Positions 5,748-51,100 are shown, counted from the stretch's first letter. The stretch: 64,000 bases of DNA from Bacteroidales bacterium (GCA_017548545.1 JAFYZW010000083.1:62001-126000), one strand, 5' to 3'. Numbers and translations: made by a program. The notes: generated by a model not told the origin, from the sequence alone.

Positions 5748-5765
5748 AAACAAACAATTAATAAT

Positions 5766-31261: not shown

Positions 31262-31293
31262 AATGATAAGGATTTTTGAAGTTTTTGACGCTG

Positions 31294-31301
31294 CAAAGAT
31301 A
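31294..31301 (-). promoter_or_regulatory. -7 promoter element for the CreD-like gene
   Basis: The minus strand reads TATCTTTG 33 bases before the ATG at 31261. Confidence 0.65.
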
Positions 31302-31511
31302 GGACTATTTTTTTTGAATTACAAGGGTAAACTGTCTCGCGTGTGCAAAATGTACATAAAAATCATTAAATAAAGAAAAAATGTGTCTTAGAGGCGTAGA
31401 TTTGGCATCAGGATTCTTGTTCAAATGACGGTCTGATGCCTGTTTCTCGCCTTATGTGTGGCTATACGTATCATTTTTTTCTATTTATTTGGCCATATGA
31501 CATTTTATAAC

Positions 31512-31519
31512 TATCTTTG
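31512..31519 (+). promoter_or_regulatory. -7 promoter element for the gene at 31565
   Basis: TATCTTTG lies 46 bases before the ATG. The 303-base gap 31262-31564 holds this element and the divergent creD promoter; the remainder is A/T-rich without another recognisable feature. Confidence 0.65.
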
Positions 31520-31564
31520 CGCCCGATTTTTAATTATTCATTATTTTTCTAAACTAAAGACGAT

Positions 31565-33103: not shown

Positions 33104-33194
33104 GTTCTTTAGTTTCGAAACGTAACTTCTTTAGTTTTGCATTTAGTTTTGTCTTTTTCGTTCTAAAACTTGCTAATATCTGAAATTTTTTGTA

Positions 33195-33202
33195 TATATT
33201 TG
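33195..33202 (+). promoter_or_regulatory. -7 promoter element before the DUF4373 gene
   Basis: TATATTTG matches the -7 consensus. It touches the hairpin at 33204-33239, so the predicted start point falls inside the 5' arm of the stem. Confidence 0.5.
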
Positions 33203-33203
33203 C

Positions 33204-33239
33204 ATCGCAGTCCGGAACATTCTGGGCTGCGATTTTTTT
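33204..33239 (+). terminator. Hairpin with T-tract after the 512-residue gene
   Basis: ATCGCAG (33204-33210) pairs with CTGCGAT (33227-33233), extended inward by CC/GG pairs, and is followed by seven T. It would end transcripts coming from 31565, while transcripts starting at the adjacent -7 box would lack part of the 5' arm and so read through. Confidence 0.65.
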
Positions 33240-33273
33240 GTAATAAATTATTAACAATTTAACAACAAAAACT

Positions 33274-34089: not shown

Positions 34090-34118
34090 TAAACTTCAAT
34101 TTTTGCTGTTAAAAACTA

Positions 34119-34562
34119 ATGAAACACATTGTAGAAAACGTGGAAGAGATGTACCACGCAAAAGAACCTTTTGGCGAAGTGATTGTCGATGAAGTGCTGA
34201 ATATCTTTCGGCATTACAAGTTGATTTATCCCGAGGATGTCGCACTGCTGATGGATGTGAAGGTGCGAGACCTTCGTTCTGCATGGTTTATGCTGACCGG
34301 AACACGTCTCATCGACGTGATCACCGAATGGCGACTGAGGCAGGCCCAGGACGTTATCCGAGAGAGGATAAACAACCTTCCTATGGATAAACGAGGGAAG
34401 CAAACCATCAAGAAATTGCTTTCAGAGGTGGCAAATCGTTGTGGATGGCGAACCGAAAGGGTGATGTCGCATGTCTTCGAACGCTATTGTGGTTGCTCAG
34501 CCATAGAATGGGTGGATAAAGCACTCTCACGGCCGTCAGAGTGCTTGCCACAACAGAAGTAG
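34119..34562 (+). CDS. AraC-type helix-turn-helix protein
   Basis: The 147-residue protein has a double HTH of the AraC type without a ligand-binding domain. The first unit is ALLMDVKVRDLRSAWFML followed by WRLRQAQDVI; the second is KLLSEVANRCGWRTERVMSH followed by the FERYCGCSAIEWV end typical of AraC. The last 14 codons (KALSRPSECLPQQK) are made of the first tandem palindromic unit, so the natural C-terminus may have been replaced by repeat sequence. It begins 29 bases after the DUF4373 gene and is likely co-transcribed. Confidence 0.75.
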   Translation: MKHIVENVEEMYHAKEPFGEVIVDEVLNIFRHYKLIYPEDVALLMDVKVRDLRSAWFMLTGTRLIDVITEWRLRQAQDVIRERINNLPMDKRGKQTIKKLLSEVANRCGWRTERVMSHVFERYCGCSAIEWVDKALSRPSECLPQQK

Positions 34563-34893
34563 CATTCTGACGGCCGACAAAATGCTTTCTCCAATCGGAT
34601 AAAGCACTCTCACGGCCGTCATAATGCTTGCCACAACAAAAGTAGCACTCTGTCGGCCGACAGAGTACTCGCTCCAATCGGAAATAGCATTCTCACGGCC
34701 GACATAATGCTTGCGGCAAAAGAAGTAGCACTCCAACGGCCGACAAAGTACTCGCTCCAATCGAAAGTAGCACTCTGACGGCCGACATAATGCTCTCTCC
34801 AATCGGAAACAGCACTCCCACGGCCGACATAATGCTTCCCACAAAAGAAGTAGCATTCTGACGGCCGACATAGTACTATCTGCGATAGAAGAG
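34521..34893. repeat. Nine tandem 41/42-bp palindromic units centred on CGGCCG
   Basis: Units begin at 34521, 34562, 34604, 34645, 34687, 34728, 34770, 34812 and 34853. Each has a palindromic half of about 24 bases (GCAYTCTGACGGCCGACATAATGCTT type) and a spacer of about 17 bases. Two spacer types occur: CCACAACAGAAGTA-like (units 1, 3, 5, 8) and CTCCAATCGGAAATA-like (units 2, 4, 6, 7). Spacers are related to each other, unlike CRISPR spacers. Apparent Cys/Arg/Pro-rich reading frames on the minus strand are by-products of the repeat. A lone copy of the palindrome is at 916-947. Confidence 0.95.
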
Positions 34894-35080
34894 TGTAAAT
34901 CATCTTCGAAAAAGATCGTATTCCCATATTCAGAGCCTCTTAAACGCGAAAAAATGGTACTTTCCCATACAAAAGGCTCATAATCGGGAATTATTCCGTA
35001 ATAATTGGGGATAAAAACAGGACTTTTTCCGAAAATGGGTGTAAAGTCGCCCTTTTCTTGGATATATGAAATCTTTTTCG

Positions 35081-35088
35081 TATCTTTG
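35081..35088 (+). promoter_or_regulatory. -7 promoter element for the DUF1593 gene
   Basis: TATCTTTG lies 38 bases before the ATG at 35119. The stretch 34894-35080 is otherwise unremarkable A/T-rich sequence. Confidence 0.65.
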
Positions 35089-35118
35089 CGGCAGAAAACC
35101 TGATAATCGAAAAGAAAG

Positions 35119-36624
35119 ATGAGAAAGCCGTTCTTATTATTGACCTTGTTCGTGGGGCTCGTATGGCTTGGAGGGAGCATGGAGGCTCGTGCCAATGACA
35201 GCAGCGAGATGCCAAAGCACCGCGTGATTATCCTGACTGATGCGGAGAATGAGCCTGATGATACGGAGTCGCTTGTCCGACTGATGCTCTACACCAATCG
35301 GATTGACGTGCGCGGACTGATTGCCACCACATCGACCCACATGAGGAACCGCATCGCTCCCGAGTCCATCCATCGTGTGATTGATGCCTACGGACAAGTG
35401 CGCAGTAACCTGCTGAAGCATGAGGCGGGATTTCCCGAGGCCGACGCATTGCACGCGCTCGTGAAGAGAGGCTCGACGTTCTATGGCATGAATGGAGTGG
35501 GGAAGGGCAAGAACTCGGAAGGCTCCGACTGGATTGTCGGCGAACTGCTGCGCACCGATGACGACAGGCCGCTGTGGGTTTGCGCATGGGGTGGAGCCAA
35601 TGTGCTGGCTCAGGCGCTCTATCAGCTGAGGGCAACGCAGTCGGCAGCCAATCTGGAGCGACTTGTCGGCAAGCTGCGCGTCTATACCATCTCCGATCAG
35701 GACGACACGGGCACCTGGATGCGCCGTGAGTTCCCCAAACTGTTCTACATCGTCAGCCCGGGTGGCTATGGCAATGCCACATGGACGGGCATGATGCAGG
35801 TGGCCGAGGGTGCCGACAACGAGAAGGTGTCGAACCGATGGCTTGCCGAAAACATCCAGCAGGGACATGGCCCGCTCGGGGCTTGTTATCCCGACGTGGC
35901 CTACGGCATGGAGGGCGATACGCCGTCGTGGCTCAATCTGATTCCCAACGGCCTGAATGAGCCGGAGCATCCCGACTGGGGCGGATGGGGTGGACGATAC
36001 GCGTTCTACAAGCCACGTCGCGAGGATTGCGACCCCACGGGCTTCAATGGTTCCATCCCGATTGAGGAGGAGACTCGTGCCATTTGGACGAATGCTGTCG
36101 ATCGTTATACACCTTACAAATTCAATGAATATGGTTGTGCCGTGCGAAGTGACACTGCCACCTACAGCACTCCACAGGCTAGCGTATGGCGTTGGCGCAG
36201 CGAGGTGCAGAACGACTTTGCCGCACGCATGGACTGGTGTACCAAGGATTATGCCGAAGCCAATCATGCTCCCGTGGCCATGGCACGACTGATGACGGAG
36301 GTGGCGGGCTACGGCGAGGACAACAATGCGCCTCGCGAAATAACCAACATGACGGTGAAGGGTGGCGATACGTTCATGCTCGATGCCACGGGTTCGAGCG
36401 ATCCCGATGGCGACAACCTGAGCTACCTGTGGTTCCAGTACCCGGAAGCGGGGAGCCTGAAACAGATTGTCCCCATCCTAGGTTCACCCAACATCTACCA
36501 TGTGAAGGTGCAGGCTCCGAAGGTCGAGAAACCCGAGACCTTGCATTTCATCCTAAAGGTGACCGACAAGGGCACGCCTGCCCTCACAAGTTATCGCCGC
36601 GTCGTGGTTACTGTAATCAAATAA
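35119..36624 (+). CDS. Secreted DUF1593 protein, nucleoside-hydrolase-like fold
   Basis: The 501-residue protein has a signal peptide (MRKPFLLLTLFVGLVWLGGS) and a DUF1593 domain starting HRVIILTDAENEPDDTESLV, whose Asp cluster resembles the metal site of inosine-uridine nucleoside hydrolases. WVCAWGGANVLAQALYQL and YTISDQDDTGTWMRREFP also match the family. The last 100 residues form a beta-rich domain (DATGSSDPDGDNLSYLWFQY), as in PKD/Ig-like modules. These proteins are predicted to act on glycosidic bonds, but no activity is established to my knowledge. Confidence 0.85.
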   Translation: MRKPFLLLTLFVGLVWLGGSMEARANDSSEMPKHRVIILTDAENEPDDTESLVRLMLYTNRIDVRGLIATTSTHMRNRIAPESIHRVIDAYGQVRSNLLKHEAGFPEADALHALVKRGSTFYGMNGVGKGKNSEGSDWIVGELLRTDDDRPLWVCAWGGANVLAQALYQLRATQSAANLERLVGKLRVYTISDQDDTGTWMRREFPKLFYIVSPGGYGNATWTGMMQVAEGADNEKVSNRWLAENIQQGHGPLGACYPDVAYGMEGDTPSWLNLIPNGLNEPEHPDWGGWGGRYAFYKPRREDCDPTGFNGSIPIEEETRAIWTNAVDRYTPYKFNEYGCAVRSDTATYSTPQASVWRWRSEVQNDFAARMDWCTKDYAEANHAPVAMARLMTEVAGYGEDNNAPREITNMTVKGGDTFMLDATGSSDPDGDNLSYLWFQYPEAGSLKQIVPILGSPNIYHVKVQAPKVEKPETLHFILKVTDKGTPALTSYRRVVVTVIK

Positions 36625-36689
36625 CAGAACTAATTAACAATTAATAATTAACAAATAACATCTTTTTTCTTATTCAAAATTTACTTACA

Positions 36690-37313
36690 ATGAAAAAGAG
36701 TTTGTTTATTAGTGCAGTAGTAATGTTGCTTGGGTTGACAGCCTGCAACAAGCAGCAGAGTGTGCCAGAGACACCCCAAGGTCCAGCGTTTGATGAAGTG
36801 CTTATGACGCGCCGTAGCATCCGTAGCTACGATGCCACCAAGACCATTAGCAAGGAAGAGGTGCGCCAGTTGTTGGCCGCCGTGCAGGAAGCTCCCTCAT
36901 GGGCCAATCAGCAGCCTACGAAGTATTATGTTGCCATCAGCCCTGAGAAGCTGGAGGCTGTGCAGAATGCTATCTATGGGAACAAGGAACGTGTGGCAGG
37001 TGCGCCTGTGCTCATCGTCTCGACCTACGAACGTGGTAAGTCGGGCTTCTTCCGTGGACAGCCCACCAACGAGATTGGCGATGGTTGGGGTGCCTATGAC
37101 AATGGTTTGAGCAACTGCTACCTCGTTCTCAAGGCTCGTGCCATGGGCTTCGACACCCTCATCATGGGTATGCGCGACGGTGATGCTCTTCGCTCCATCT
37201 TCAATATCCCTGCCGAGGAGACGGTGATGGCTGTCATCTCGCTGGGTTATCGCAATCAGGAGCCTAACCAGCCTGAGCATAGGCCGCTTGACGAAGTCGT
37301 CAAGTTCTTCTGA
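36690..37313 (+). CDS. Nitroreductase-family lipoprotein
   Basis: The 207-residue product has a lipoprotein signal (SLFISAVVMLLGLTAC) with the lipobox LTAC. The rest is a short nitroreductase: the FMN-phosphate binding start MTRRSIRSYD, PSWANQQPTKYYVA and a C-terminal MAVISLGY. Most nitroreductases are cytosolic FMN enzymes, so a lipobox form suggests a periplasmic, membrane-tethered flavoprotein. It follows the DUF1593 gene by 65 bases of repetitive AATTAACAATTAA leader sequence. Confidence 0.87.
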   Translation: MKKSLFISAVVMLLGLTACNKQQSVPETPQGPAFDEVLMTRRSIRSYDATKTISKEEVRQLLAAVQEAPSWANQQPTKYYVAISPEKLEAVQNAIYGNKERVAGAPVLIVSTYERGKSGFFRGQPTNEIGDGWGAYDNGLSNCYLVLKARAMGFDTLIMGMRDGDALRSIFNIPAEETVMAVISLGYRNQEPNQPEHRPLDEVVKFF

Positions 37314-37321
37314 TAAAAAAA

Positions 37322-37356
37322 CAAGCCGTGCGGAGTGAAAAGCTTCGCACGGCTTG
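37322..37356 (-). terminator. Intrinsic terminator of the VWA-tubulin-protease operon
   Basis: CAAGCCGTGCG (37322-37332) pairs with 37346-37356. On the minus strand the stem is followed by seven T (the A-run at 37314-37321). It lies 20 bases past the protease gene stop; for the plus-strand nitroreductase it would lack a T-tract. Confidence 0.8.
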
Positions 37357-37375
37357 CTGTATCAGGGGGGTGATG

Positions 37376-40300
37376 TCAGTTGAGGATGGCGACCTGGTCG
37401 ATCTTGAGGTTCTGAATCTGCAGCTCGATGAGCTTGTAGCGGGAGTCGAGGTCGAGATCGGCAGGACGTGAGCTGAAGTAGCGTTGGTAGGTGTCGCGCC
37501 AAACGTTGCGGTCGGCCTGCGAGTCGGTGTGGATGAAAACCATTTTCTCGAGGGTCTCGTCGAGGGTGACGCCCGTCTGGACAATGTGCAGGAAGCAGTC
37601 GCTGCGTTTGTCGAGCAAAGGCATGAGCTGCGCCACGTCGCTGGCCTTGTCGCTGAGATACGGATAACGCGTCTTGTCGGTGAGATATTCAACCATCGAG
37701 AAGCCCGAGTAGGCCTTGCGCAACTGAGTGATGACCTTGTCGCGTATCTGAATCTTGAACTGCAGGATGTCGTCCTGCGACATCTTGTAGCTATCGACGA
37801 GGTCATAGAGGTGGAGGCCTCCGGTGATATCCTGCTTATGCTTGTCGAAGAAGGTGTCGAGCACGGCATTGTCGAGCAGTTGGATACATGGGGTGCGCGA
37901 AGGTACGGTCATCTGCTTGAGCGTCTGCTGTTCCTCTTGGCTCCACTTGCCGAGGTCGGAGACGTAATCGGCCAGGGCGTGATACTTGTTGATGAGCTTG
38001 ATCTTGATGTCGGTGAGGCTCGATACGACCATGCCGGCCAGATGGAGGCGCAGGTGCTTCTCGGCCTTTTCCTGTTCGGCATGGGCAATCCTGGACTTGA
38101 TGACGGCCGCTTCCTCGTCAAGACTTTCCTTGAGCTTGATGAGCCGATGGTGGGCATACCAAACGCCGAGGATGTAGAGGAGGATGAGGACCGCGGTGAA
38201 GACCGAAGTGATGGTAGCCATCTTGGTGAGGTCGAGGTAGAACAGGAGCCATACATCGAGCAGAAAGATGAGGATGCAGATGGCTCCCCAGAAGAGCCAT
38301 TTGCGACGGACACGCTTGAACTCCTTGATGGCCTTTGGTCGTGTCTCGGAGACGAATGTCTGATAAGCGTCCTTCTGTGTGGCTATCTCGCTTTCGAGAC
38401 GTGCGACGGACTGCTGGAAGATCTGGTCACGCTTGGAGGGGTTGGAAAGGGTCTGCAGCAGCTGTTCGTAGGAGAATCGGAGCGATGTGTAGCGTGCAGT
38501 GTCCTGTTTGAGCAGGCGCGTCTCCGAATCGATGAGGATGTGCAGGATGGAAGCGCGGATGTTGTCGTCGGTGAGGTTGAACGAGACGGTCTTGCGCTTG
38601 TCGATGCCCGATACCTTGACCTTCTCGGTGACTTCGACATCGGTGATGATGCAGGCCTGGTTGCAAAGGGCGGGGTCGTCGATGTAGGAGAAGGGGATGT
38701 AGCAATAACCCTTGTCGCCAAAGCTGGTGCCCCACGAGTTGCGGACGATATAGACCTTGTCGTCTTCGCTGAATCCGCAAATCACGAGGGCATGGTTGCC
38801 TTCGTCATGGTCCTTGATCTGCTGGTCGGTGGGACGATAGATAAAGCCGTTACCATCGGCCTGGAACGAGTCGAAGATGCGGAGCGAGATGGCGACTGGG
38901 TAGCCTTCGGAGAGGGCTGAGGTGAGCGCTTCGTGGGCAATCTCGACGTTCTTGACCGTCTTGACCAGACGCGTCTTGCCATCCTCGTAGGCTTCGGGAG
39001 AGGGCTTGATAAGGTTTTCGCCATAGGGGCAGAGGTCTTCGCTACAGATGCCCAATGCCGACATGGCGCTGACGGCTTCGAAGAAAGAGATGCCTTCCTT
39101 GAGCTTGTCCTTCCAATTCACGCCACCCGTATCGACCGCATTGTAGAAGACGAACATCTCGCTGAGGTCGGGGTTGGAGGGATTGGCCTTCTTCATGATG
39201 TATTCGAAGATGGAAACCATGGAGAATGCCGAGCAGGTGCCGAGGGTGCCCTGGTTCTTGGGTATCGTGAAGTTGGAACGCAGATCTACGCTGCGCTCGT
39301 TGGTCTGTCGGGGCACGTATGTTTCCTCAAATAGACGCACTTCGCGGTCGGTGGGCATCAGGCGGAAGATTTGCCCTTCGAAGTTGAAGCCGCCATCGGA
39401 AAGGCGTTTCTTCGAGTCTTCGACGGCCTTGACCTGTACCTTGATGGCATCGAGTTCCTCCTGCTTCTTGCGGATGAAGGCGGTTCGCTGGCGTATTTGT
39501 GCGCGAAGCAGCTTCATCTCGTCGAGGGGCAGATAGACGTGCTCGTTGATGTCGGTCGGGGTGGTCAGGACTCCGCGATGCACGCGACGCGGCTGGTCGG
39601 CGGTAGCTTCCTCGATATGGACCTGCTTGTTGTCTTCGGTGATGAAGAGGTTGATGGTCTCGGCATCGCAGTCGTCGAGGGTAAGCTGTTCCTTGTGGTA
39701 CTGTATGCCCTGCAAGAGGGCATCATCCTCGCCGAGCAGTTGCGCCATGATGGCCTGCTTGTGGGGGAGGGAAAGACGTTCGTCGTTGATGAACGACTGC
39801 ATGTCGTTGATCGAAGCATCGATGCGCTGCTGCAATTCCTTTTCGAGTTGCTGCATCTCGCTGAGCGACAAGGCTCCACGGGCGTTGGCTTCGGCAATCT
39901 TCGGATCGACACGGTCGTGCACGAAGTCCTTGTAGAGCTGCACATGACGGCTGAGGAGGCGCAGGGCGGTATCGGAGGCCTCGTTGACGTTGATCTTCGT
40001 CTCTTCGACACGTTCGCGTCCCAATACCTCAAGATAGGCGTTGTGGAGCAGGTAATCGACGAAGTAAATCTTGTCGAAGGCAAGCATCGAGATGCCGAAG
40101 GTGGTCACGTCGATGTCGTTGCCGAGCTGGTTGGCGGGGAAGATGGCTGGATAATGTTCGACGGCAAGGAGCGCGAATTCGCCCAGGATGCGCAGCAATC
40201 CCTCACGGTCGAGGTTGAGCGCGAGGCCCTGCGTATTGGAGTCCTCGAAGAGCAGGAGACGGTGCACGTCGGCATGTGCGATAACCTCGCGTGCCACCTT

Positions 40301-40855
40301 GCGACAGGTGTCGCTGTGCTGCTCCATCAGGTCGGGAAGCTTTGCCTTGGCATCCTCGCCGGTGACAAGGAGCGGTGCCAGCACGGCAGGCAATCCCATC
40401 ACGTCGATGAGATAGGGTTTGCCCGACTTGCGGATGGCGGCGATGAGCTGGAGGGCGATGGACCAACAGTGTTCGTCATAGAGGGGCAGGTAGAGGCAGA
40501 GGTTGAGCATGCCCGTCTCGCCCGGGTTGTCGATGGTGACGGTGCGATTGAAGAGCTCGACGAAGTATTGTTGCAGCTGTGCGGCATTGGTGAGCGTCGG
40601 GCTCGGGTCGGCCTCGACATGGTAGCGGTAGCTGATGCCCGAGGTGAAGGTGGTCTCGACTTCGATGGGCTTCTGGACGAGCTTCTGAATCCGCAAACCG
40701 CCATCGGCATCGGCCGTGTCGCACGAGAATATCTGCAGATAGTCGCAGGCATCGCCGGCACCGTACATCAGGGTGTACTGCTTGAGGAAGGGAGCCGCTT
40801 CGGTGAGCTCCCTTCCGATAAGCAGGTGTGCCGTATGTCGCATTTTGCTGTTCAT
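37376..40855 (-). CDS. Papain-fold (C1) protease with two membrane segments
   Basis: The 1159-residue protein has no signal peptide. An N-terminal region of about 450 residues is unrecognised; it is followed by a coiled segment (450-485) and a C1A peptidase domain from about 510 to 740: the QGTLGTCSAF nucleophile Cys541, GNHALVICGF His688 and VRNSWGTSFGDKGYCYIP Asn706. Two membrane helices follow (about 853-873 and 878-900), then a helical tail of 260 residues. Both large parts are therefore likely on the cytoplasmic side. Its ATG overlaps the stop of the tubulin-like gene by one base, a sign of translational coupling. Prodomain-like control could come from the N-terminal part. The targets are unknown. 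Confidence 0.82.
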   Translation of the reverse strand: MNSKMRHTAHLLIGRELTEAAPFLKQYTLMYGAGDACDYLQIFSCDTADADGGLRIQKLVQKPIEVETTFTSGISYRYHVEADPSPTLTNAAQLQQYFVELFNRTVTIDNPGETGMLNLCLYLPLYDEHCWSIALQLIAAIRKSGKPYLIDVMGLPAVLAPLLVTGEDAKAKLPDLMEQHSDTCRKVAREVIAHADVHRLLLFEDSNTQGLALNLDREGLLRILGEFALLAVEHYPAIFPANQLGNDIDVTTFGISMLAFDKIYFVDYLLHNAYLEVLGRERVEETKINVNEASDTALRLLSRHVQLYKDFVHDRVDPKIAEANARGALSLSEMQQLEKELQQRIDASINDMQSFINDERLSLPHKQAIMAQLLGEDDALLQGIQYHKEQLTLDDCDAETINLFITEDNKQVHIEEATADQPRRVHRGVLTTPTDINEHVYLPLDEMKLLRAQIRQRTAFIRKKQEELDAIKVQVKAVEDSKKRLSDGGFNFEGQIFRLMPTDREVRLFEETYVPRQTNERSVDLRSNFTIPKNQGTLGTCSAFSMVSIFEYIMKKANPSNPDLSEMFVFYNAVDTGGVNWKDKLKEGISFFEAVSAMSALGICSEDLCPYGENLIKPSPEAYEDGKTRLVKTVKNVEIAHEALTSALSEGYPVAISLRIFDSFQADGNGFIYRPTDQQIKDHDEGNHALVICGFSEDDKVYIVRNSWGTSFGDKGYCYIPFSYIDDPALCNQACIITDVEVTEKVKVSGIDKRKTVSFNLTDDNIRASILHILIDSETRLLKQDTARYTSLRFSYEQLLQTLSNPSKRDQIFQQSVARLESEIATQKDAYQTFVSETRPKAIKEFKRVRRKWLFWGAICILIFLLDVWLLFYLDLTKMATITSVFTAVLILLYILGVWYAHHRLIKLKESLDEEAAVIKSRIAHAEQEKAEKHLRLHLAGMVVSSLTDIKIKLINKYHALADYVSDLGKWSQEEQQTLKQMTVPSRTPCIQLLDNAVLDTFFDKHKQDITGGLHLYDLVDSYKMSQDDILQFKIQIRDKVITQLRKAYSGFSMVEYLTDKTRYPYLSDKASDVAQLMPLLDKRSDCFLHIVQTGVTLDETLEKMVFIHTDSQADRNVWRDTYQRYFSSRPADLDLDSRYKLIELQIQNLKIDQVAILN

Positions 40856-43611
40856 CAGAGTTCCTTTTTGACAAAGCTGATTTCCTCGGTGATCAATTGG
40901 CGGATGGGTTCATAGCCTTTGGCCGTGATCTGCTTCTTGTCCATGTTGATCTGGGAATACTTCTCGAAATAGTTTTCCTTGACATCCTGCAGGAGCTTGT
41001 CCATATACTCGCTGCCGTTCTTCTTGCCAATCTCCTCGATGAGTGCCTCGTACTCGTCGTGGATGGTTTCGATGTGGCGCTTGAACTCCTGGTAGGCCTC
41101 GTCGCGGTACTCGCTGAGTTCCATCCAATAGTCGAAGAGCGGATCGCCCTCCTCGGTGTTCTGGTACTGGTAGTGACCGTCCTCGTTCTTGATGAGACCG
41201 AAGATAAGACCTTGTATCCACAGGCCCAACGAATCGTCGGCCTTCGGCGTGGGTTCGATGCGATAATCCTCGCGGATCATGCGGTTGAGCATGTTCTGGT
41301 CGAGGTGGCAGCTGACGGTCGAGCGGTCGTACTTGGGCTTGTAGCTCTGCAACGTGGCGATGTGGAAGGCGGGGAAGACGCCGAACTGACGATAGATGAT
41401 CACACGGTCGGTGGTGCCGAGGTTGGCGAAATCGACGGTGGCCACGGGGTTCTCGATCTTCTTCTTGAAGTAGTCATCCTTGAAGAGACGTGAGTTGAGC
41501 TTGTCGGGCACGCCGATGTAGTAGGAGTCGGTGGGAGCCACCATCGGGCGGTGTCCGCGATCGTCATACTGGATAAGCGGCTTGGACTTGTTGATGGCCA
41601 TGCGAACGACGTGTTCGAAAGCTGCGGGACTCATCTTGTCGAGCACATTGTCGATGGTCATGCCCTCCCAGACGGAAGCGGCCTTGAGACGCGATGCGAA
41701 GTCGGTGAGCTTGCGTAGCACGTCTTCGCTGTGCATGGTGTCGAGGCTGAAGAGCTTGTCGCCCTCGAACTCCTTGAGCAGGTCGGTGATGAGCAGGTCG
41801 TTGTCGTTGACTGCCACATCGCCCACGAACTCCTTGGCGAGGTCGATCTGGAAGATCTGCGTCTCGCGGTTGACCTGATTGACGATGCGCGAGATGGCGT
41901 TGGTGCACTCGTCGTTGACGTTGGAGAGCAGGCGCTTGATGTTCTGTATCTTGGTATATTGGTCAACCAGTTCGTTCTGCAGGCTGGTGAAGAACGAGAT
42001 GGCGAACGAGTGGCGCAGCAGGTCGCGCTTGTTGCGGGTGAGGTTGGCCACGCAGCTCAGCACATCGTCGGCATATTCCTGCTGACGCGAACGTGTCTTG
42101 AAGAACTTGGAGCTGTAGTCGGTGAGGTCCTGGATGGCGTTGTCGAGGGCGGAGACGAGCAACGGCTGCTGGTCGGTGAGGTCCTTGTACTCCTTGTTCA
42201 TCTCGTCGAAGAAGATGTTGACCTGCGACTGGATGCCAAGCACCACGGCTTCGGCGGCACCGATGCCGCACTCCTGGTTGATGGTCTTGACAAGGAGCTT
42301 GTGGAGCTCGTCGAAGACGCGTTCCTTGAGCTGGCGGAGCTTGCCGTCGATATTCTCCTGACCCTTCATGCCCGAACCGTTGAGGTAGTCCTGCACTTCA
42401 GCGTTGGCGCTGTCCTTGTTGTCGATCTCGGAGAGCTGGAAGGGCGGGTTGATGTCGAGCAGGTAGTCGATCACATCGTCGTGTTCGCCACCGCCATTCT
42501 CGCGGATCTTAACAGTGTCGGAGTCGATCCAACCATTGACAATGGAATCGCTATCGACACAGCTGTTGAACAAGCGTTCGATAAGACGCTTGACGGCCTT
42601 GTAGGCGTAGAGCGAACGCAGTTCGGAGCCCTTGAAGAGTATCTCGCAGACACCCATGCCGGCGCACCAGGCACGCTTGCCTTCGACATCCATTGTGCCG
42701 GCAGCAATCATCTTCTGCACATTGTCGCTCACCGAAGCCGAGGCACTGGAGAGTTCTCCGGCCGATGTGACAAGCGCAAGGCTGATCATGTCGGTGAGCT
42801 GATCGACGTGGTTGTAGATATCGCCATTGGAGTTGCGGTTGTCGATGAAATAGACGGTATCGAACGGGTTCTGGCTGGTTTCGAGAACGGGTGTTGACAC
42901 GTAGTCGAAGGTCACGGGTTTGCTGTCCATCTGCAGGTGCATGAGCCAGTCGAGGTCGAGGATGGCGCCGTAGGCATTGGGTTTGACGCGCGCCATGGCA
43001 GCATTGCCGTTGCCCATGCTTTCGAAGACGTCGGGGAGCACGGCGTAGCCCGTCAGCTTGCGGTTGGGAGCCAACTGACGCACCAGGTAAGCTGCATCGA
43101 TGAACGTGCCGCAACCTGTACCGCCGCAGACCGAGAAGATCATGTGAATCTCGACGTTGCTTGCAGCAAGCTCGTAACGCGGGTTGTTGGAGATCTGTGC
43201 ATCGGCGATGCGGTCGAGGACATTCTTGACCTGGGTCTGCATCTTCTGATAGTTATAGGTGATGGCGAAACGACCATTGGAGCGAACCTGGCCTGCACCG
43301 AGCATCATCGACTGGAGTGCGAAGATGTTCTTTTCGGCGAGCCACGTGAAGTGGTTGCGATTCACCTCGTAGAATGAGCGCGGATCCATCACCTGCAGCG
43401 AAAGCTGCTCGTAAGGCTCAAGACGGATCTTGCCCATCTTCGAGTCGATTTCCTTCTTGAAGGCGCCTCCGTCGGTATCTACACCGAGGAAGCCGATCAT
43501 GGGTGGCAGTTCGCCGTAGGTTTCGATAAAGAGTTTCTTGGCATTGAGCAATGCGTTCATGCCGGTTCCACCTAAGCCGATGTAAAGGCTGCGTTTGATT
43601 TTTGTTGCCAT
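40855..43611 (-). CDS. Tubulin/FtsZ-superfamily GTPase-like protein
   Basis: The 918-residue protein begins with a Rossmann-like YIGLGGTGMNALLNAKKLF (residues 10-28), continues with FLGVDTDGGAF (41-51), and has the tubulin signature loop as FSVCGGTGCGTFIDAAY (159-175; consensus GGGTGSG). VYFIDNRNSNGDIYNHVDQL and MISLALV follow, as in prokaryotic Tubulin_2-type proteins. The remaining 600 residues are mostly helical, far longer than FtsZ (about 400), and end in a charged helix. It has no signal or membrane segment. It sits between a membrane VWA protein (33 bases upstream) and the protease, and probably forms polymers or a scaffold at the membrane. Confidence 0.85.
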   Translation of the reverse strand: MATKIKRSLYIGLGGTGMNALLNAKKLFIETYGELPPMIGFLGVDTDGGAFKKEIDSKMGKIRLEPYEQLSLQVMDPRSFYEVNRNHFTWLAEKNIFALQSMMLGAGQVRSNGRFAITYNYQKMQTQVKNVLDRIADAQISNNPRYELAASNVEIHMIFSVCGGTGCGTFIDAAYLVRQLAPNRKLTGYAVLPDVFESMGNGNAAMARVKPNAYGAILDLDWLMHLQMDSKPVTFDYVSTPVLETSQNPFDTVYFIDNRNSNGDIYNHVDQLTDMISLALVTSAGELSSASASVSDNVQKMIAAGTMDVEGKRAWCAGMGVCEILFKGSELRSLYAYKAVKRLIERLFNSCVDSDSIVNGWIDSDTVKIRENGGGEHDDVIDYLLDINPPFQLSEIDNKDSANAEVQDYLNGSGMKGQENIDGKLRQLKERVFDELHKLLVKTINQECGIGAAEAVVLGIQSQVNIFFDEMNKEYKDLTDQQPLLVSALDNAIQDLTDYSSKFFKTRSRQQEYADDVLSCVANLTRNKRDLLRHSFAISFFTSLQNELVDQYTKIQNIKRLLSNVNDECTNAISRIVNQVNRETQIFQIDLAKEFVGDVAVNDNDLLITDLLKEFEGDKLFSLDTMHSEDVLRKLTDFASRLKAASVWEGMTIDNVLDKMSPAAFEHVVRMAINKSKPLIQYDDRGHRPMVAPTDSYYIGVPDKLNSRLFKDDYFKKKIENPVATVDFANLGTTDRVIIYRQFGVFPAFHIATLQSYKPKYDRSTVSCHLDQNMLNRMIREDYRIEPTPKADDSLGLWIQGLIFGLIKNEDGHYQYQNTEEGDPLFDYWMELSEYRDEAYQEFKRHIETIHDEYEALIEEIGKKNGSEYMDKLLQDVKENYFEKYSQINMDKKQITAKGYEPIRQLITEEISFVKKEL

Positions 43612-43644
43612 AATATGATGTTTTTTAATGATTTTGTCGAAGGA

Positions 43645-45390
43645 TTATTTCTTGAGGGTGATCTTGATCTTTTTGCCTGTAGCGAGGCTCTTCATCTCGA
43701 CGGGTGTCAATGCCTCGATGGTGTTGCCTGGAGGATTCATGGCATAGCCCGAAACGCCGAGGGCGCGGACACGTGTCTTCTTGGAGCCCGGGACAAGCGA
43801 CCACTCCTTGTCCCAGAAGTCTTCGGTGATGTATTTCACTTCGCCCGTGAAGATGCGGTTGAGCAGGTTCTGCTGGCGACGTCGGTTGCTAAATACCACA
43901 CGGCGACAGCCCTTGATGCGCGGATTCTTATAGATGGGCTGGCACTCCATCTGGATGCTGCTGAGTCGTATGGTGGGGTAGAGCAGCGGACGCATGATGA
44001 GGAACCAGACGATGAGCAGCGCGAGGATGATGGCGCAGATGATGATGACGGCCCACTTGAGCGGATTCATATCGACGTCGTAGCTGGAGCGCAGGGTGAG
44101 CTGATAGTCGGATACGGGTTCGCCGTTGATGTTCTCGAGGTTACGTTTCGAACTCGGCACAGAGATGAGCTGGTAGTAGTGCTTGCCCTCGCGGCTGTCG
44201 GTGTTGGGGATGATGCTCAACACGGCGGGTTGACCGGGGTCGATGTTGAGATTGCCATCGGAAGGCTCGCCGTTGAAGAGCAACTGACATTGCTGGCCCA
44301 GAGGTTTGTCCTTGTCGGTCGTTGTCTCGGAGAAGCGCAGCTGGATATGTGCACCCATCTTGCTCGCCGACTCGTTGAACTGCGGATTGAGGTCGAATGT
44401 GAGGGTGTCCTGGGCTTTGGCATCGCTCCACCAGAAGCTATCGTACCACTCTGCTTCGCCGAGGTCAATCTCCTCGGTAGGGAGGAGGAGCGAACGCTCG
44501 GCGATATTCTTGACATGGAGGATGAGGTCGGGATTGAGGATATCGATCTCGTCGCTGGTCACCTTGATGGGCACATCGAACGACTGGGGCATCTGGCTGA
44601 TGCCGACATTGGGAGTGAAGTGGAAGGTGGCACGTCCCTGCTGGATAATGCCGCCTGCAAGCGTGACTCCGATGGATGAATCGGCCGACTGAGCGCTGGC
44701 CTTGAAATTGCCTTCGGCCGAGAAAGGCAGGATGGCATCGTGCGGGTCGAGGGTGTTGTAGTTCATCTCTGTCTTGTCGAAGCTGCCAAACGGGTTCTGA
44801 ATGCCATTGACGGTCTTGAACTTGGGACAATGTTCGACAGCCGTACGGATACGGTCGTCGATGGCTTCGTTGGAGAGAGCTACGTAATAACCCTGCGAAT
44901 TGCCCGCGCGTTCGCACCATTGCCGGATACGCTTGCAGACGTTCTCGGTACCGTCGGGGCTGGGGTTCTTGTTGTCCTTGCCGTCGGTTAGCAGGTAGAT
45001 GTAGTTGTCCTTATTGGGATCAATGTAGCTTTGGGCATGGTCCCATGCCTGGCAGATATTGGTGCCTGTCAGTGCATCGGGATAGCGATAGACCTCCTTC
45101 TTAAACTTCGCCCAGTCGAAGTCCTTCTTGAGCTCGTGTTTCACCGACTTGCCATAGACGGTGCCCTGGAAGGGAACGATGGTCACCATCGTGTTGTCTG
45201 ACAGACGGGCAATATCCTTCTCAAGATAGTCGAGTGTGGCATCCCAGATGTGATATTCGGTCACCATTGAACGTGAACAATCCAGGATGTAGATATAGTT
45301 GCGTTCCCTTTGTGCCCAAAGGGAAGAGACGCAAGACATGAGTAAGGCGAGGACGAGAAATCGAGTCACCAGAGACTTTTGTTTCTTCAT
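43645..45390 (-). CDS. Membrane-anchored von Willebrand factor A protein
   Basis: The 581-residue protein has a signal peptide (MKKQKSLVTRFLVLALLMSC) and a VWA domain from about 30 to 200 with an intact MIDAS: D37-C-S-R-S41, Thr in DALTGTN (about 108-110) and Asp136 in LLTDGKDN. A beta-rich periplasmic region (about 210-440) is followed by one membrane helix (about 446-470, WAVIIICAIILALLIVWFLI) and a basic cytoplasmic tail of about 109 residues. This topology could link a periplasmic metal-dependent binding event to the tubulin-like protein. It is the first gene of the operon. Confidence 0.87.
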   Translation of the reverse strand: MKKQKSLVTRFLVLALLMSCVSSLWAQRERNYIYILDCSRSMVTEYHIWDATLDYLEKDIARLSDNTMVTIVPFQGTVYGKSVKHELKKDFDWAKFKKEVYRYPDALTGTNICQAWDHAQSYIDPNKDNYIYLLTDGKDNKNPSPDGTENVCKRIRQWCERAGNSQGYYVALSNEAIDDRIRTAVEHCPKFKTVNGIQNPFGSFDKTEMNYNTLDPHDAILPFSAEGNFKASAQSADSSIGVTLAGGIIQQGRATFHFTPNVGISQMPQSFDVPIKVTSDEIDILNPDLILHVKNIAERSLLLPTEEIDLGEAEWYDSFWWSDAKAQDTLTFDLNPQFNESASKMGAHIQLRFSETTTDKDKPLGQQCQLLFNGEPSDGNLNIDPGQPAVLSIIPNTDSREGKHYYQLISVPSSKRNLENINGEPVSDYQLTLRSSYDVDMNPLKWAVIIICAIILALLIVWFLIMRPLLYPTIRLSSIQMECQPIYKNPRIKGCRRVVFSNRRRQQNLLNRIFTGEVKYITEDFWDKEWSLVPGSKKTRVRALGVSGYAMNPPGNTIEALTPVEMKSLATGKKIKITLKK

Positions 45391-45449
45391 AGGTTTTTCC
45401 TTAGTTTTGGTATAGACTTATACCTTACGATTGTATAATAATATCGGCG

Positions 45450-45457
45450 CAAATATA
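45450..45457 (-). promoter_or_regulatory. -7 promoter element of the VWA-tubulin-protease operon
   Basis: The minus strand reads TATATTTG 60 bases before the ATG at 45390. Confidence 0.6.
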
Positions 45458-45692
45458 GTCAATTTTGCAATATCTCGGACAGTTTACATTGTTTTTTTGA
45501 TGAAATCAACCTTGAAAATGTCAGTTTGACTCGGAAACTGGGAAAATTGACACATCTTTTTTGCTGGGACAAAGATAATGAGTTTCGGAGATTAATCGGT
45601 GATTTTGACAATGTTGTCGGTATAGAATGAGAAAAAACGGCGGGAAATAGAAAAAAAAGAGGCGGATTCTTGGAGATTCGCGCGAATTGTTT

Positions 45693-45700
45693 TAACTTTG
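45693..45700 (+). promoter_or_regulatory. -7 promoter element for the SGNH hydrolase gene
   Basis: TAACTTTG matches TAnnTTTG, 19 bases before the ATG at 45719. The 328-base intergenic stretch 45391-45718 holds this element and the divergent operon promoter; a small hairpin (CAGTTT...AAACTG) lies near 45525, and nothing else is recognised. Confidence 0.6.
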
Positions 45701-45718
45701 CACCGAAAAATAATATCT

Positions 45719-46873
45719 ATGGAGGAACAAGCAAACAAATATACCAAATGGGTGGCTTGCTGGGGCAACGCCACGTCGATCTCCGACCGAAAGATGTCGG
45801 TGTATGCACGGGATATCACACTCAGGTACCCTATCAGGATGTGCTTCAGCGGCAGCAAGCTGCGTTTCCGCTTCTCGAACCTGACGGGCACCGAAGAGGT
45901 GACGCTCACCAAGGTGCGTGTGGCGAAAGTGGTGGAGCATTATCGTCCTGTGGCCATCACCTTCGATGGGGCCCGACGTATCCACATTGCACCTGGTAAG
46001 GAAGTTGAGAGCGATGAGATACCTTTGGAAATAAATGCAGGTGATGCTATCGAGGTGAGCATTTATCTGGGCAGCTATACGCAGATGAATGCCGGTACGT
46101 TGGTGACAGGACCACTTTCGAAGGGCAAGTTCTCGTACGGTGATTATGCCGATGCCAAGGTGTTGCCGCTTGACTTAACCAGGAACACCAATTGGTTCTA
46201 TTTCCTCAACACTATCGACATTCTGACCGAGGAGAAGAATCATGCCCTGGTGTGCTATGGCGATTCGATTACAGCGCAAAGCTGGCCCGATTATCTGGCG
46301 AACCGTGCTTGGAAGGAAGGATTACACGATGTGGCGATCATCCGACGCGCGGTGAGCGGAACACGCATCCTGCGCCAATACAATTGCATCACCTATCAGG
46401 CATACGGATTGAAGGGCGAGACGCGCTTCCCGATCGAGATGAATGTGGCGGGTGCGCGCGATGTGATCATCCAGCATGGCATCAATGACATCATCCATCC
46501 GGTGGGTGTCGATGTCAATCCGTTCCGTCCCATGAGCGATATGCCTACGACCGAAGACCTCATCGAAGGTATGAAGAAGTTCTATATCGAGCACGCCCGC
46601 CAGTTGGGCCTTCGTGTGTGGAGCGGCACACTGCTGCCTATCTGGAACTGGAGGACATACGCCGAGTTCCGCGACCAGATACGTCGTGAGTTCAATGAGT
46701 GGCTGCGCACTTCACCCGACTTTGATGGCTGCATCGACTTCGATCAGGCCGTGAGAGACCCAGAGCGACCCCTGGCTTTCGCTCCTGGCTGCGATTCGGG
46801 CGACCATCTGCATCCGAGTGAGCGGGCTTATGAGGCGATGGCCAACTGTGTGCCTTTGAAGCTATTAACTTAA
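45719..46873 (+). CDS. SGNH/GDSL-family hydrolase
   Basis: The 384-residue product lacks an obvious signal peptide. An N-terminal beta domain (residues 1-170) precedes the SGNH core: block I CYGDSITAQSWPDYL (Ser nucleophile), block III HGINDI and block V SGDHLHPSERAYEA (Asp/His). Such two-domain enzymes are esterases acting on acylated carbohydrates or similar compounds. ATG 45719 is used, since an in-frame TTG at 45698 overlaps the -7 box. The DUF362 gene follows 14 bases later and is likely in the same operon. Confidence 0.85.
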   Translation: MEEQANKYTKWVACWGNATSISDRKMSVYARDITLRYPIRMCFSGSKLRFRFSNLTGTEEVTLTKVRVAKVVEHYRPVAITFDGARRIHIAPGKEVESDEIPLEINAGDAIEVSIYLGSYTQMNAGTLVTGPLSKGKFSYGDYADAKVLPLDLTRNTNWFYFLNTIDILTEEKNHALVCYGDSITAQSWPDYLANRAWKEGLHDVAIIRRAVSGTRILRQYNCITYQAYGLKGETRFPIEMNVAGARDVIIQHGINDIIHPVGVDVNPFRPMSDMPTTEDLIEGMKKFYIEHARQLGLRVWSGTLLPIWNWRTYAEFRDQIRREFNEWLRTSPDFDGCIDFDQAVRDPERPLAFAPGCDSGDHLHPSERAYEAMANCVPLKLLT

Positions 46874-46887
46874 ATTTCTAAATAATT

Positions 46888-47967
46888 ATGAACAAAATGA
46901 TTAAACGAGCACTACTGCTTGGCCTATGTGGAGGAATGATGGCCAGCTGCAATTCGAGGAAGGCGCAGTCTAACAAGACGGAAAGCAACACCGATGGTCG
47001 CAGGTATGTGAATTATGACGAGCGTACGGGCGACGAGGCCGTCGTCTATTTCACCCGAGACCTAAGTGCCAATGGTCTGATTGCCGCATACGAAAAGGTG
47101 AACCAGAACATCGTGGGCAAGGTGGCAGTGAAACTGCATACCGGTGAACAGAACGGCCCCAACATCCTGCCTCGTGAATGGGTGAAAGCCCTATTTGAAA
47201 AGGATCTGAAGGATGCCATCATCGTGGAGACCAACACCTATTACGAGGGTGATCGCTATACCACCGAGAAACATCGTGAGACCCTGAAGGTGAATGGTTG
47301 GACCTTCTGCCCTGTCGATATCCTGGACGAGGATGGTACTGCCATGCTGCCAGTCAAGGGTGGCAAGTGGTTCAAGGAGATGTCGGTGGGCAAAAATCTC
47401 AAGAACTACACTTCCCTGGTTGCTCTGACCCATTTCAAGGGACATACGCAGGGCGGCTTCGGCGGTTCGAACAAGAACATCGGCATCGGTTGTGCCGATG
47501 GCCGTATCGGCAAGGCGATGATCCACACCACGCCCGGACAACCCGATCAATGGGACATCAAGGAGGAGGAGTTCATGGAACGAATGACCGAATCGACCAA
47601 GGCCACCGTCGACTTTTTCGGCGAACATGTAACATACGTCAACGTGATGCGCAACATGAGCGTGTCGTGTGACTGCGAGGGATTGGCCGCTGCTCCTGTG
47701 GTTACGCCCAACGTCGGCATCCTTTCTTCGACCGATATCCTTGCTGTTGACCAGGCTTGCATCGATATCGTTTTTGCCATGACTGAAGAGGAGCACCACG
47801 ATCTGTTGGAACGCATTGTCACACGCCATGGATTGCGCCAGCTCTCTTACATGAAGGAACTCGGTATGGGTCACGATCGCTACAAGCTCATCGACCTCGA
47901 CAATGGTGGCAAGCAGATCACTGCCGCTGAGGCAGCCGAAGGTCTGAAGCCGTTTGTAGCAGAATAA
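46888..47967 (+). CDS. DUF362 lipoprotein
   Basis: The 359-residue protein has a lipoprotein-type signal (ALLLGLCGGMMASC). The DUF362 domain shows VAVKLHTGEQNGPNILPREW, NYTSLVALTHFKGHTQGGFG and MSVSCDCEG, but I see no complete 4Fe-4S ferredoxin motif as in some family members. The function is unknown; family members are often annotated as iron-sulfur or DUF362 proteins near respiratory genes. It probably shares the promoter of the SGNH gene and ends at the terminator near 48012. Confidence 0.82.
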   Translation: MNKMIKRALLLGLCGGMMASCNSRKAQSNKTESNTDGRRYVNYDERTGDEAVVYFTRDLSANGLIAAYEKVNQNIVGKVAVKLHTGEQNGPNILPREWVKALFEKDLKDAIIVETNTYYEGDRYTTEKHRETLKVNGWTFCPVDILDEDGTAMLPVKGGKWFKEMSVGKNLKNYTSLVALTHFKGHTQGGFGGSNKNIGIGCADGRIGKAMIHTTPGQPDQWDIKEEEFMERMTESTKATVDFFGEHVTYVNVMRNMSVSCDCEGLAAAPVVTPNVGILSSTDILAVDQACIDIVFAMTEEEHHDLLERIVTRHGLRQLSYMKELGMGHDRYKLIDLDNGGKQITAAEAAEGLKPFVAE

Positions 47968-48011
47968 GCCTATCTTGCCGTTTCATGAATAGAAACGATG
48001 ATGCCTATTAC

Positions 48012-48056
48012 AAGGGGCGGCGATTTCAGAACGGAATCGCTGCCCCTTGGTCTTTT
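48012..48056 (+). terminator. Intrinsic terminator after the DUF362 gene
   Basis: AAGGGGCGGCGATTT (48012-48026) pairs with AATCGCTGCCCCTT (to 48048), with two wobble or mismatched positions, and is followed by GGTCTTTT. Confidence 0.75.
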
Positions 48057-48093
48057 GGGAGTCAAATCGTACAAAAAGGGCGGTTTTGTAGGT

Positions 48094-48137
48094 GATGTTA
48101 CATTGTTAGAGAAATTTGTTGCGTGAAATGTAACATC
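48094..48137. promoter_or_regulatory. Inverted repeat upstream of the hybrid sensor gene
   Basis: GATGTTACATT (48094-48104) recurs exactly inverted at 48127-48137, with 22 bases between. The right half-site reaches the -33 area of the promoter at 48155-48162, so it is a candidate operator. Confidence 0.5.
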
Positions 48138-48154
48138 TTCTGCGAATTATTCGC

Positions 48155-48162
48155 TATCTTTG
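48155..48162 (+). promoter_or_regulatory. -7 promoter element for the hybrid two-component gene
   Basis: TATCTTTG lies 37 bases before the ATG at 48199. Confidence 0.65.
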
Positions 48163-48198
48163 CCGCATATTTATCATGAATTACAATTTATAAAGATT

Positions 48199-51100
48199 AT
48201 GTTACACAAGCTTATTTCTTGCCGCCGCACCAGCATTGCAGTGTTGACGTTCGTCATGGCTTTGATAGCCCATGAGGCGAATGCCAAGTTGAATCTGCTC
48301 TATACCACCGAGAATAATCTGCCCAACAGCTTGGTCAATCAGGTGGAAGAGAGTGCCGACGAGATGATTTGGGTGGTAACCGAAGATGGGTTGTGCCGTT
48401 TCGATGGCTCTCAGTTTGTCACTTATACCGATGATTCGAATAATCCGCATTCGTTACAAAGCAATGTTGTACGAGCCATCTGTACCGACGATGATGGTCA
48501 TGTATTGGTGGGAACGATGGGTGGCGTGCAGATGTATAGACCCGAGACCGATGACTTTACGAGGGTGATCTGCGACACGCTACAGGGGATTCGCCCCGTC
48601 AATGTGTCGCATCTGACCCGTCTGGCAAATGGCGACTTCATCGCCTGCGGAAACAATACCTTCACGATTCACATTGATGAGGACGGTGAGCCTCACGCTC
48701 TGGCTAACGTCCTTACTAAAGAACTGGGAGCAAGTATTTGCTGTTGTCAGGATTATTTAGGCAACATCTGGGCAACCTCATTAGTGCGTGGTTTGCATCG
48801 TCTCAACAATCAGGGAATTTTGGAGGAGATAACATTAAGCGATGGCAACAAAGGCTTCAATGAATTGCTGACAGGTCCTGATGGTGTGGTGTATTTGGGT
48901 GGCGTGGATCGCGGCCTCTATAAATATAATAATGTGACACAGCAGATAGAGGAGATCACTCGTCCGGAAGACAATTACAGGGTGTGTGAGTTGCGCTGTG
49001 TGCCTGGCAAGCAACAACTATATGTATGTACTGATGGAGAAGGTGTCAAGATACTGGATTGTTTGACGGGACAGCTGATGGACTTCGACTTTGACGATGC
49101 TCAAATGGAGGCGGGAACTCAGAAGGTCCACTCGCTGACTACCTCGCGCAATGGTGATATTTGGATGGCAATTTATCAGAAAGGTGTGCTGGTGGTGTCG
49201 CGCAATCCGTTTGACTTCCACTATTTCGGCCCGCACTCCCTGCGATATAATAACATCGGGGATCGTTGTGTGACCTCCTTGATCCGTTCTCATGAGGGCA
49301 TTCTTTGGGTAGGCACGGACAATGGCGGTGTATATGGCTTGAATTCTCAGGGTGAAACGGTGGCGTATTATCCTTGCAATTCAGGACCGGGGTCGGTGCC
49401 GACTGCGTTGATTTCCTTGTATGAAGACTCACGTCATCGTGTATGGTTCGGTTCATACGGGCAGGGTGGAGGCATGATGGACGTCAAGACGGGCGTCTGC
49501 CATTACATACCCTTGGAGAACCAGCGAAGCAATACCAGCAATATCTATGACTTCGAGGAGGACGAGAGGGGCAATGTGTGGGTGGCTTCGATGGGTAATG
49601 GCATACTGAAGTACGATGAGCAGCGAAGAACGTTCGTGCGTCAGAACCTGCCTGCATCCTGCAACTGGGCGGGTGCCTTGTGTTATGACGCGGTGACTGG
49701 CCAACTGTATGTGGGCACATACAGTGGTCTGATGATCATCAACAAGCTTGATTCTGAGATGACGTGTGAACAGTATTACCCTGATCTAGTTGTCTATAGC
49801 ATCACTTGTATTTCTGCCACGCAAATCAGTTTGTGTACCAATGCCGGCCTGATCGTTTTCGATACACAGAAAAGATGCGGCCAGGTATATACGACACAGG
49901 AAGGTCTTCCCACTGACAATATCTTTGCTTCGCAGACCGATGGAGAAGGCAATCTTTGGGTGAGCAGCGGAAAAGGCATTTCGAAACTCAATCTGAGCCA
50001 GCGAACCATAACCAACTACACGTCGCGAGAAGGACTTCAGTTCAACGAGTTTTACAAGAATGTCTCGATGCGCGATGATGATGGGACGCTGTGGTTCGGA
50101 GGAACGGAGGGCATCAACTGGTTCAATCCGCAGGAGATCCGCAAGAACGAGACCATGGTCGAGGCTCGTGTAGTGAGGTTCAGTACCGACCTTAACAACA
50201 TTTTGCCCGACAAGGATGGTGTCTATCAACTCGAGGAGCGGGACCGTTCGTTCTCGATCGAACTGGCCACGCGCCCCATTATGCAGACCTTCAGTGTAGC
50301 TTATCTTTATGCAATGGACAACGACGCCTGGCAGACGCTGCCCCCCTCGGTCAATCGAGTCACGTTCAGTCGCATCAGTTCGGGTAAACATACGTTCCGA
50401 TTCCAGACCGATGTCGATGGAAAACTTTCGCCTGTCAAGACTGTGCAGATACTTGTCGCTCGACCGTGGTTCCTGAAATGGTGGGCGCTGTTAATATGGC
50501 TTGCCATCTTCAGCATCATTGTTTGGCTCGTTATCCAGCAACTTCGACGCCGATATCGTGAGACTAGACTGCGGATGAAGCATGCCCGTGAGGTGGCAAT
50601 CAAGGAAGAGAAACTGCAGTTCTTCATGAATCTTGCCCATGAGATTCGTACCCCTATGACGCTGGTGGTAAGTCCGCTGCAGAAGTTGATGTCGAATGAT
50701 ACGGATTCGGAACGCCAGCGCAGTTACCAGATTATCGACCGAAATGCCAATCGTGTGCTAGGCCTGATCAATGAGCTCATGGACCTCAGGAAGATCGACA
50801 AGGCTCAGATGCATCTGCAATGTCAGCAGTTGTTGCCTGCCCAATTGCTCCAGTACCTTTGTGATACGGTTTTGGATTTGACCCAAGAGCGGCAGATTAA
50901 CTTGAAATACAATAATCTGTTGCCCGATGGTTTCACGACATGGATTGACAAGGGATGCTTCGACAAGATCGTGATCAACCTGCTTTCCAATTCTATCAAA
51001 TATACACCTCGCGGCGGTCGGATTACTGTTGAATCCAAATTGTCGCCAGAGAATATGCTGCAGATCAGTGTGACCGATACAGGTGTCGGTATAACTCCAG

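Follow-up and report, generated by a model that had tools for sequence, protein, structure and literature searches.

A conserved VWA-FtsZl1 operon of Bacteroidales with a third component predicted to be a pseudo-tubulin bearing a papain-family protease

A stretch of 64,000 nucleotides from a Bacteroidales bacterium (GCA_017548545.1 JAFYZW010000083.1:62001-126000), hereafter the window, contains an operon of three minus-strand genes whose reality and conservation can be stated with high confidence. The genes encode a membrane protein with a von Willebrand factor A (VWA) domain, a tubulin-like GTPase of the Tubulin_2/FtsZl1 family (TUB), and a third protein, X, in which a papain-family C1 protease and a membrane hairpin appear to be inserted into a predicted tubulin fold devoid of the GTP-binding motif. 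As a tentative reading, to which we give a little less than an even chance, the operon may encode an accessory, horizontally moving trans-envelope system in which an envelope cue passes through the VWA protein to an assembly of TUB and X and thereby activates the protease.

Organization and conservation of the operon

The three genes are packed closely together:

43645..45390, minus strand: VWA protein gene, 581 aa
40855..43611, minus strand: gene of TUB, the Tubulin_2/FtsZl1 GTPase, 918 aa
37376..40855, minus strand: gene of X, the pseudo-tubulin with an inserted papain-family C1 protease and a membrane hairpin, 1159 aa

A gap of 33 bases (43612-43644) separates the VWA and TUB genes, and TUB and X overlap by one base (40855), so that the packing reported in a preliminary description of this DNA is exact to the coordinate. 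To gauge conservation, contigs from one genome per species were searched with a TUB profile, yielding 101 relatives, 80 of which were kept; three near-copies of the window operon (L050-L052) were left out, and all counts refer to the remaining 77 loci. Their hosts are mostly rumen and gut Bacteroidales represented by metagenome-assembled genomes, together with Fibrobacter, Myroides, Aestuariibaculum, Bizionia, and others, Flavobacteriia included. A VWA gene lies directly upstream of TUB in 71 loci and a third gene directly downstream in 74, and both neighbors occur in the same order in 69 of the 77, with short intergenic gaps and often overlaps. This shared order rules out a chance cluster and settles the question, raised in the preliminary description, of whether the three genes are kept together in other genomes. 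Most exceptions involve contig ends or probable gene-call problems, and at one locus (L115) the third gene fell below threshold. Genes outside the operon vary from locus to locus.

Within the window's genus, TUB and X are found in exactly the same five of 15 genomes, and the VWA gene occurs in these five and in one more (G013), where it is cut by the contig end. Distances among TUB proteins and among X proteins correlate over 66 loci (r = 0.85). Across the order, any match to TUB was detected in 15 of 393 genomes, full-length in only three.

The operon lies between two elements that had already been recognized, here read on the minus strand from 45457 to 45450 and from 37356 to 37315:

45450..45457, minus strand: TATATTTG, a Bacteroidetes -7-like element 5' of the VWA gene (consensus match only)
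37315..37356, minus strand: 11-bp hairpin followed by a T-run, a probable terminator 3' of the X gene (sequence)

The terminator hairpin was not among the output of the scan, whose loop limit is 8, and a sigma-70 scan of the region is uninformative for Bacteroidetes promoters.

TUB, a predicted full-length tubulin core

TUB belongs to Pfam Tubulin_2 (PF13809; E 6.5e-49; score 167.5 bits, cut-off 27), and the tubulin signature on which its first identification was based, GGTGCG, forms the GTP-binding loop, with GGTGxG present in 77/77 relatives. An AF2 model built from 71 sequences reached a pLDDT of 90, and all 50 structural matches listed by VIA were tubulins, CetZ, or FtsZ, the best being CetZ (Z 27.9, 3.1 A over 298 residues). 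Judged by this model, the tubulin fold of the 918-residue protein, a point on which the preliminary description had placed weight, is highly likely. Up to 345 residues align with tubulins in VIA, and because these alignments run from model residue 5 to 787, both tubulin domains are predicted to be present. TUB thus appears in the model as a complete tubulin core that a helical insert interrupts at approximately residues 350-660; in the AF2 secondary structure, helices at 418-581 form a coiled-coil middle, flanked on either side by the tubulin core. We did not find its T7 catalytic loop, and when the TUB alignment was searched as a profile against the PDB, the only matches were coiled-coil look-alikes. 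From its sequence, TUB may be an active GTPase able to assemble.

Additional Tubulin_2-like proteins were encountered in other Bacteroidales. Some loci encode a second, shorter one after X (L118 17995-19194, L119, and L121, about 399-405 aa; L126 15505-16980, 491 aa), and L030-L039 represent a different Tubulin_2 operon type with other partners and no adjoining VWA or X homologues.

X, a probable pseudo-tubulin

Four regions can be distinguished in X:

40082..40843, minus strand: X residues ~5-258, tubulin GTPase-like fold without GGTGxG (AF2 and VIA)
38696..39292, minus strand: X residues 522-720, papain-like peptidase (Pfam Peptidase_C1 PF00112, E 7.3e-17)
38159..38296, minus strand: X residues 854-899, two-helix membrane hairpin (hydropathy)
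37379..37651, minus strand: X residues ~1069-1159, match to the tubulin C-terminal region of TUB (~662-747; hhalign)

The N-terminal part of X (X-N, residues 1-425) was modelled by AF2 from 65 sequences at a pLDDT of 92. In VIA, the top 36 entries for this model were all FtsZ, CetZ, TubZ, or PhuZ (Z 8.3-11.7), headed by CetZ (Z 11.7, 3.6 A over 191 residues), and the first non-tubulin fold appeared at Z 8.0. The C-terminus of X matched TUB in hhalign with a score of 38.7, against a maximum of 25.3 among 30 block-shuffled decoys. When X proteins that lack the papain domain (Myroides and L115) were compared with TUB, the two families matched N-terminus to N-terminus over 240 columns, including residues around 'FIDNRNxNG', with a score of 40.6 against a decoy maximum of 30.2.

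A different explanation would be that X-N is a generic Rossmann-like fold and X a membrane protease that is merely encoded beside a tubulin. Foldseek results for X-N are weak (best E 3e-3, with non-tubulin folds ranked first) and do not settle the fold alone, and a profile comparison of window-clade X-N with TUB by sequence alone did not rise above decoys. Against these observations stand the VIA ranking, in which 36 FtsZ/tubulin-family entries precede all others, the C-terminal match to TUB, which clearly exceeds the decoys and preserves the expected order, and the N-terminal match of papain-less X proteins, so that this explanation seems improbable. X is very probably a tubulin relative, as its predicted fold and the profile matches to TUB suggest, and would be a diverged TUB paralogue that has lost GTP binding. 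Since GGTGxG is absent from 72/72 X proteins, X is termed a pseudo-tubulin by fold and descent and placed outside the GTPase family. In our reading, the papain domain and the membrane hairpin occupy the position of the TUB helical insert.

The papain domain of X

The C1 protease with intact Cys, His, and Asn and two membrane helices that had been recognized at the outset is borne out: catalytic C541, H688, and N706 and the oxyanion residue Q535 are all present in the window protein, and the transmembrane segments lie at 854-872 and 881-899. The Cys-His-Asn triad is intact in 72 of 73 C1-bearing X proteins, the sole exception being L113 (11811-15068), where Ser replaces the catalytic Cys. The papain domain is also the best-conserved part of X, with a mean identity of 42% versus 24% for the rest. 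X has neither a signal peptide nor a recognisable propeptide, and basic residues flank the hairpin on both sides; the missing signal peptide and the basic flanks suggest that the papain domain resides in the cytosol.

The papain domain is a removable module of X. It is absent from five X proteins (three from Fibrobacter and two from Myroides), and the third genes of L029 and L115 encode X homologues without it (hhalign probability 90-95%), L028 being a weak case. Two of the papain-less Fibrobacter versions (L086 14386-18532 and L088 7756-12166) are followed by genes for a Fib_succ_major protein and an Ion_trans channel-like protein, which are perhaps replacement effectors.

The VWA protein

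The VWA protein of the window gives a sub-threshold Pfam match only (VWA_CoxE, E 0.18), its VWA domain having diverged too far for a confident match. As previously described, the metal ion-dependent adhesion site (MIDAS) is intact, with DxSxS present as LDCSRS; the N-terminus is hydrophobic and signal-peptide-like at 6-24, and a basic tail assigned to the cytosol follows a single strong transmembrane segment at 448-466. The VWA protein is a single polypeptide in 33 loci, as in the window. In most others (about half of the loci, L054-L129), two genes take its place, one for a secreted VWA protein and one for a lipoprotein-like partner bearing a transmembrane helix and a cytosolic tail, an arrangement that fits a periplasmic part relayed via a membrane part to the cytosol. 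A DxSxS-bearing VWA protein occurs in at least 65 of the 77 loci, and several of the remaining loci are cut by contig ends.

Gain and loss of the operon

The operon is missing from the corresponding place in a sister genome, which defines its extent:

37314..45629, strand not assigned: cassette, absent from the same place in sister genome G010

G010 keeps both flanks (window 30000-37311 and 45630-50828), mostly at 73-90% DNA identity, with only ~120 bases between them, a clean empty site; the operon is therefore an 8.3-kb cassette. No integrase and no target-site or flanking repeats were seen at the cassette edges. In the TUB tree, whose long branches limit its resolution, Prevotellaceae, Muribaculaceae, Rikenellaceae, Tannerellaceae, and Bacteroidaceae are mixed and Fibrobacter falls among Bacteroidota, as would be expected under horizontal movement. 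A phage or plasmid origin was considered and rejected, since only seven distant plasmid matches and one unannotated phage-labelled record were found. The latter, a 9.8-kb "Bacteriophage sp." record from human faeces (MT836542.1, H8), encodes at 6934-8112 a tubulin-like protein with 22% identity to TUB and could be a mislabelled host contig. Near the cassette, at window 34514-34877, lie about 8.5 copies of a 42-bp unit (AGCACTCTCACGGCCGACATAATGCT...); this array is also present in the cassette-free sister genome and at about 12530-12937 of L163.

Relationship to known systems

Operons of vWA and FtsZl1 genes have been described, with a proposed role in membrane remodelling (Makarova and Koonin 2010, PMC2875224). 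The main text of that paper lists PKs, P-loop GTPases, and OmpA proteins among FtsZl1 partners and mentions no protease, while the third gene may stand unnamed in its supplementary family list; it also reports that the FtsZl1 C-terminal domain has no similarity to known tubulin/FtsZ C-terminal domains and that T6-H7 was not found. The window operon resembles these systems in that TUB combines an N-terminal FtsZ-like GTPase and GGTG loop with a coiled-coil middle and a helical C-terminus, in the adjacent gene for a MIDAS-bearing vWA protein, and in its patchy distribution. Unlike the FtsZl1 of Makarova and Koonin, TUB is modelled as a full tubulin core interrupted by a helical insert. The evidence supports assignment to the FtsZl1 + vWA systems as these authors understood them, with a protease-bearing third component added. 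Accordingly, the suggestion of a related or new version of such a system was sound as regards the conserved FtsZl1 + vWA operon, but it overlooked that X itself is probably a diverged tubulin without the GTP motif and that its papain domain is removable.

Tubulins have also been proposed to act with a membrane vWA protein and a TRAFAC GTPase in thresholded conflict systems within mobile neighborhoods (Kaur et al. 2020, PMC7159879). According to the text of that paper, the GAP1/tubulin conflict systems, found in Firmicutes and Actinobacteria, depend on a TRAFAC GTPase (GAP1) as well as on FNIII components. The window operon differs in having neither, and an assignment to the GAP1/DO-GTPase tubulin systems was rejected because Pfam matched none of the three to a P-loop GTPase. 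The MoxR-vWA ternary system of the same study was likewise rejected, as its required MoxR AAA+ ATPase is absent and none of the three genes encodes an AAA+ protein. A papain domain fused to a pseudo-tubulin does not appear in the text of PMC7159879, its supplementary tables aside.

Like papain family C1 (cathepsin-like) enzymes, X has the Q/C/H/N active site and gives both Pfam and PDB matches; unlike them, it shows neither a signal peptide nor a recognisable propeptide, and the domain sits within a tubulin-like protein that is membrane-tethered and presumably cytosolic. Two tubulin-fold proteins are encoded or used together in alpha/beta-tubulin and BtubAB heterodimers. X is unlike these in lacking the GTP motif and bearing a protease and a membrane hairpin, and any TUB-X heterodimer is putative. 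No description of a pseudo-tubulin protease was found in the literature. X looks like a new component within the known FtsZl1-vWA kind, because a fusion of protease and pseudo-tubulin is mentioned in neither the 2010 main text nor the 2020 text. No paper was found that assigns a function to FtsZl1/Tubulin_2 proteins, described in 2010.

Distant versions and neighboring genes

Distant versions of the operon occur in Thermaceae:

L130, 8407-16366: distant Thermaceae version
L131, 8309-16386: distant Thermaceae version
L169, 8378-17470: distant Thermaceae version

On these plasmids (Thermus, Meiothermus, and Allomeiothermus), genes for a vWA protein, a tubulin-like protein, and a third, hypothetical protein are followed by brxL in 3/3 cases; an insertion sequence lies between the operon and brxL in Allomeiothermus, and the Meiothermus operon adjoins HmaB/HmaC of the Hma system. 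In L027, a 68%-identical genus mate, genes for RloB and AAA_21 (RloAB-like; 5069-7051) lie directly downstream of the operon. A search for literature linking tubulin to BrxL, or tubulin to a pseudo-enzyme and a cysteine protease, returned nothing relevant.

Proposed mechanism and alternatives

In the proposed mechanism, the inner membrane would anchor the VWA protein, its metal-binding VWA domain facing the periplasm and its tail reaching into the cytosol, where TUB, as an active GTPase, would pair or co-assemble with X, itself tethered to the membrane by its hairpin. An envelope cue would alter the VWA protein, whose tail would then permit assembly of GTP-bound TUB with X at the membrane; X molecules thus brought together would switch on their papain domains and cut cytosolic targets. 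The most likely role would be a conflict or stress response, possibly anti-phage. Such a path from periplasm to polymer to protease would match the anatomy of the proteins, and gating of the protease by tubulin assembly comes close to an even chance. A bolder formulation, which we consider rather unlikely, envisages a two-subunit prokaryotic tubulin in which one subunit keeps GTP binding and the other has exchanged it for a membrane-tethered papain domain, with VWA-gated GTP assembly switching on the protease for immunity or programmed self-damage.

Several points weigh against the proposed envelope-to-protease system. Contacts among TUB, X, and the VWA protein are ones that we infer, and the sequence suggests no substrate for the protease. 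The protease-free versions in Fibrobacter, Myroides, L028, L029, and L115 imply that the core function of the wider family lies outside proteolysis, and the Thermaceae third gene was rejected as an X homologue, there being no detectable similarity. PADLOC, applied to 140 flanking genes of Bacteroidota loci, found at most two members per family, and PADLOC-DB 2.0, a 2023 library that may lack such a system, gave no convincing match to the three proteins (best 0.029, one protein).

Two other explanations share parts of this evidence, and each strikes us as unlikely. The operon might encode a membrane remodelling machine, in which TUB polymers shape the membrane, X is their anchored partner, the papain domain trims or recycles the polymer, and the VWA protein provides the link to the envelope. 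FtsZl1 with vWA is the founding association of the Makarova and Koonin proposal, and the retention of the pseudo-tubulin part in papain-less members makes assembly look more basic than proteolysis; however, the triad kept in all but one C1-bearing X and the superior conservation of the papain domain point to a main role for proteolysis where the domain is present, and patchy gain and loss would be unusual for a structural system. The other explanation is anti-phage abortive infection, with the VWA protein sensing phage entry or envelope damage and the protease killing or arresting the cell. It would accommodate the cassette-like presence and absence, the mixed host families in the tree, the RloAB-like genes downstream in L027, and the BrxL and Hma genes that adjoin the Thermaceae versions, but the operon encodes no nuclease, pore, or NADase effector, and the PADLOC results for both the flanking genes and the three proteins speak against it. 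A defence island in Bacteroidota is not supported by the PADLOC counts, for which no background rate was measured. More generally, a role in defence is indirectly suggested by the gain and loss of the cassette and by the Thermaceae cousins, with no clear excess of defence genes among Bacteroidota neighbors, and can be called possible but on the doubtful side.

Implications

In this compact, conserved three-gene version, an enzyme is attached to the FtsZl1 system, so that function becomes readable as proteolysis and testable by single mutations. The TUB model suggests that FtsZl1 proteins do possess the tubulin C-terminal domain that was thought to be missing, and a protease-bearing tubulin without the GTP motif would add a new kind of protein to the tubulin superfamily. 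If the proposed mechanism is true, the mobile set carried by many gut and rumen Bacteroidales would represent a novel means by which a cytoskeletal protein controls proteolysis.

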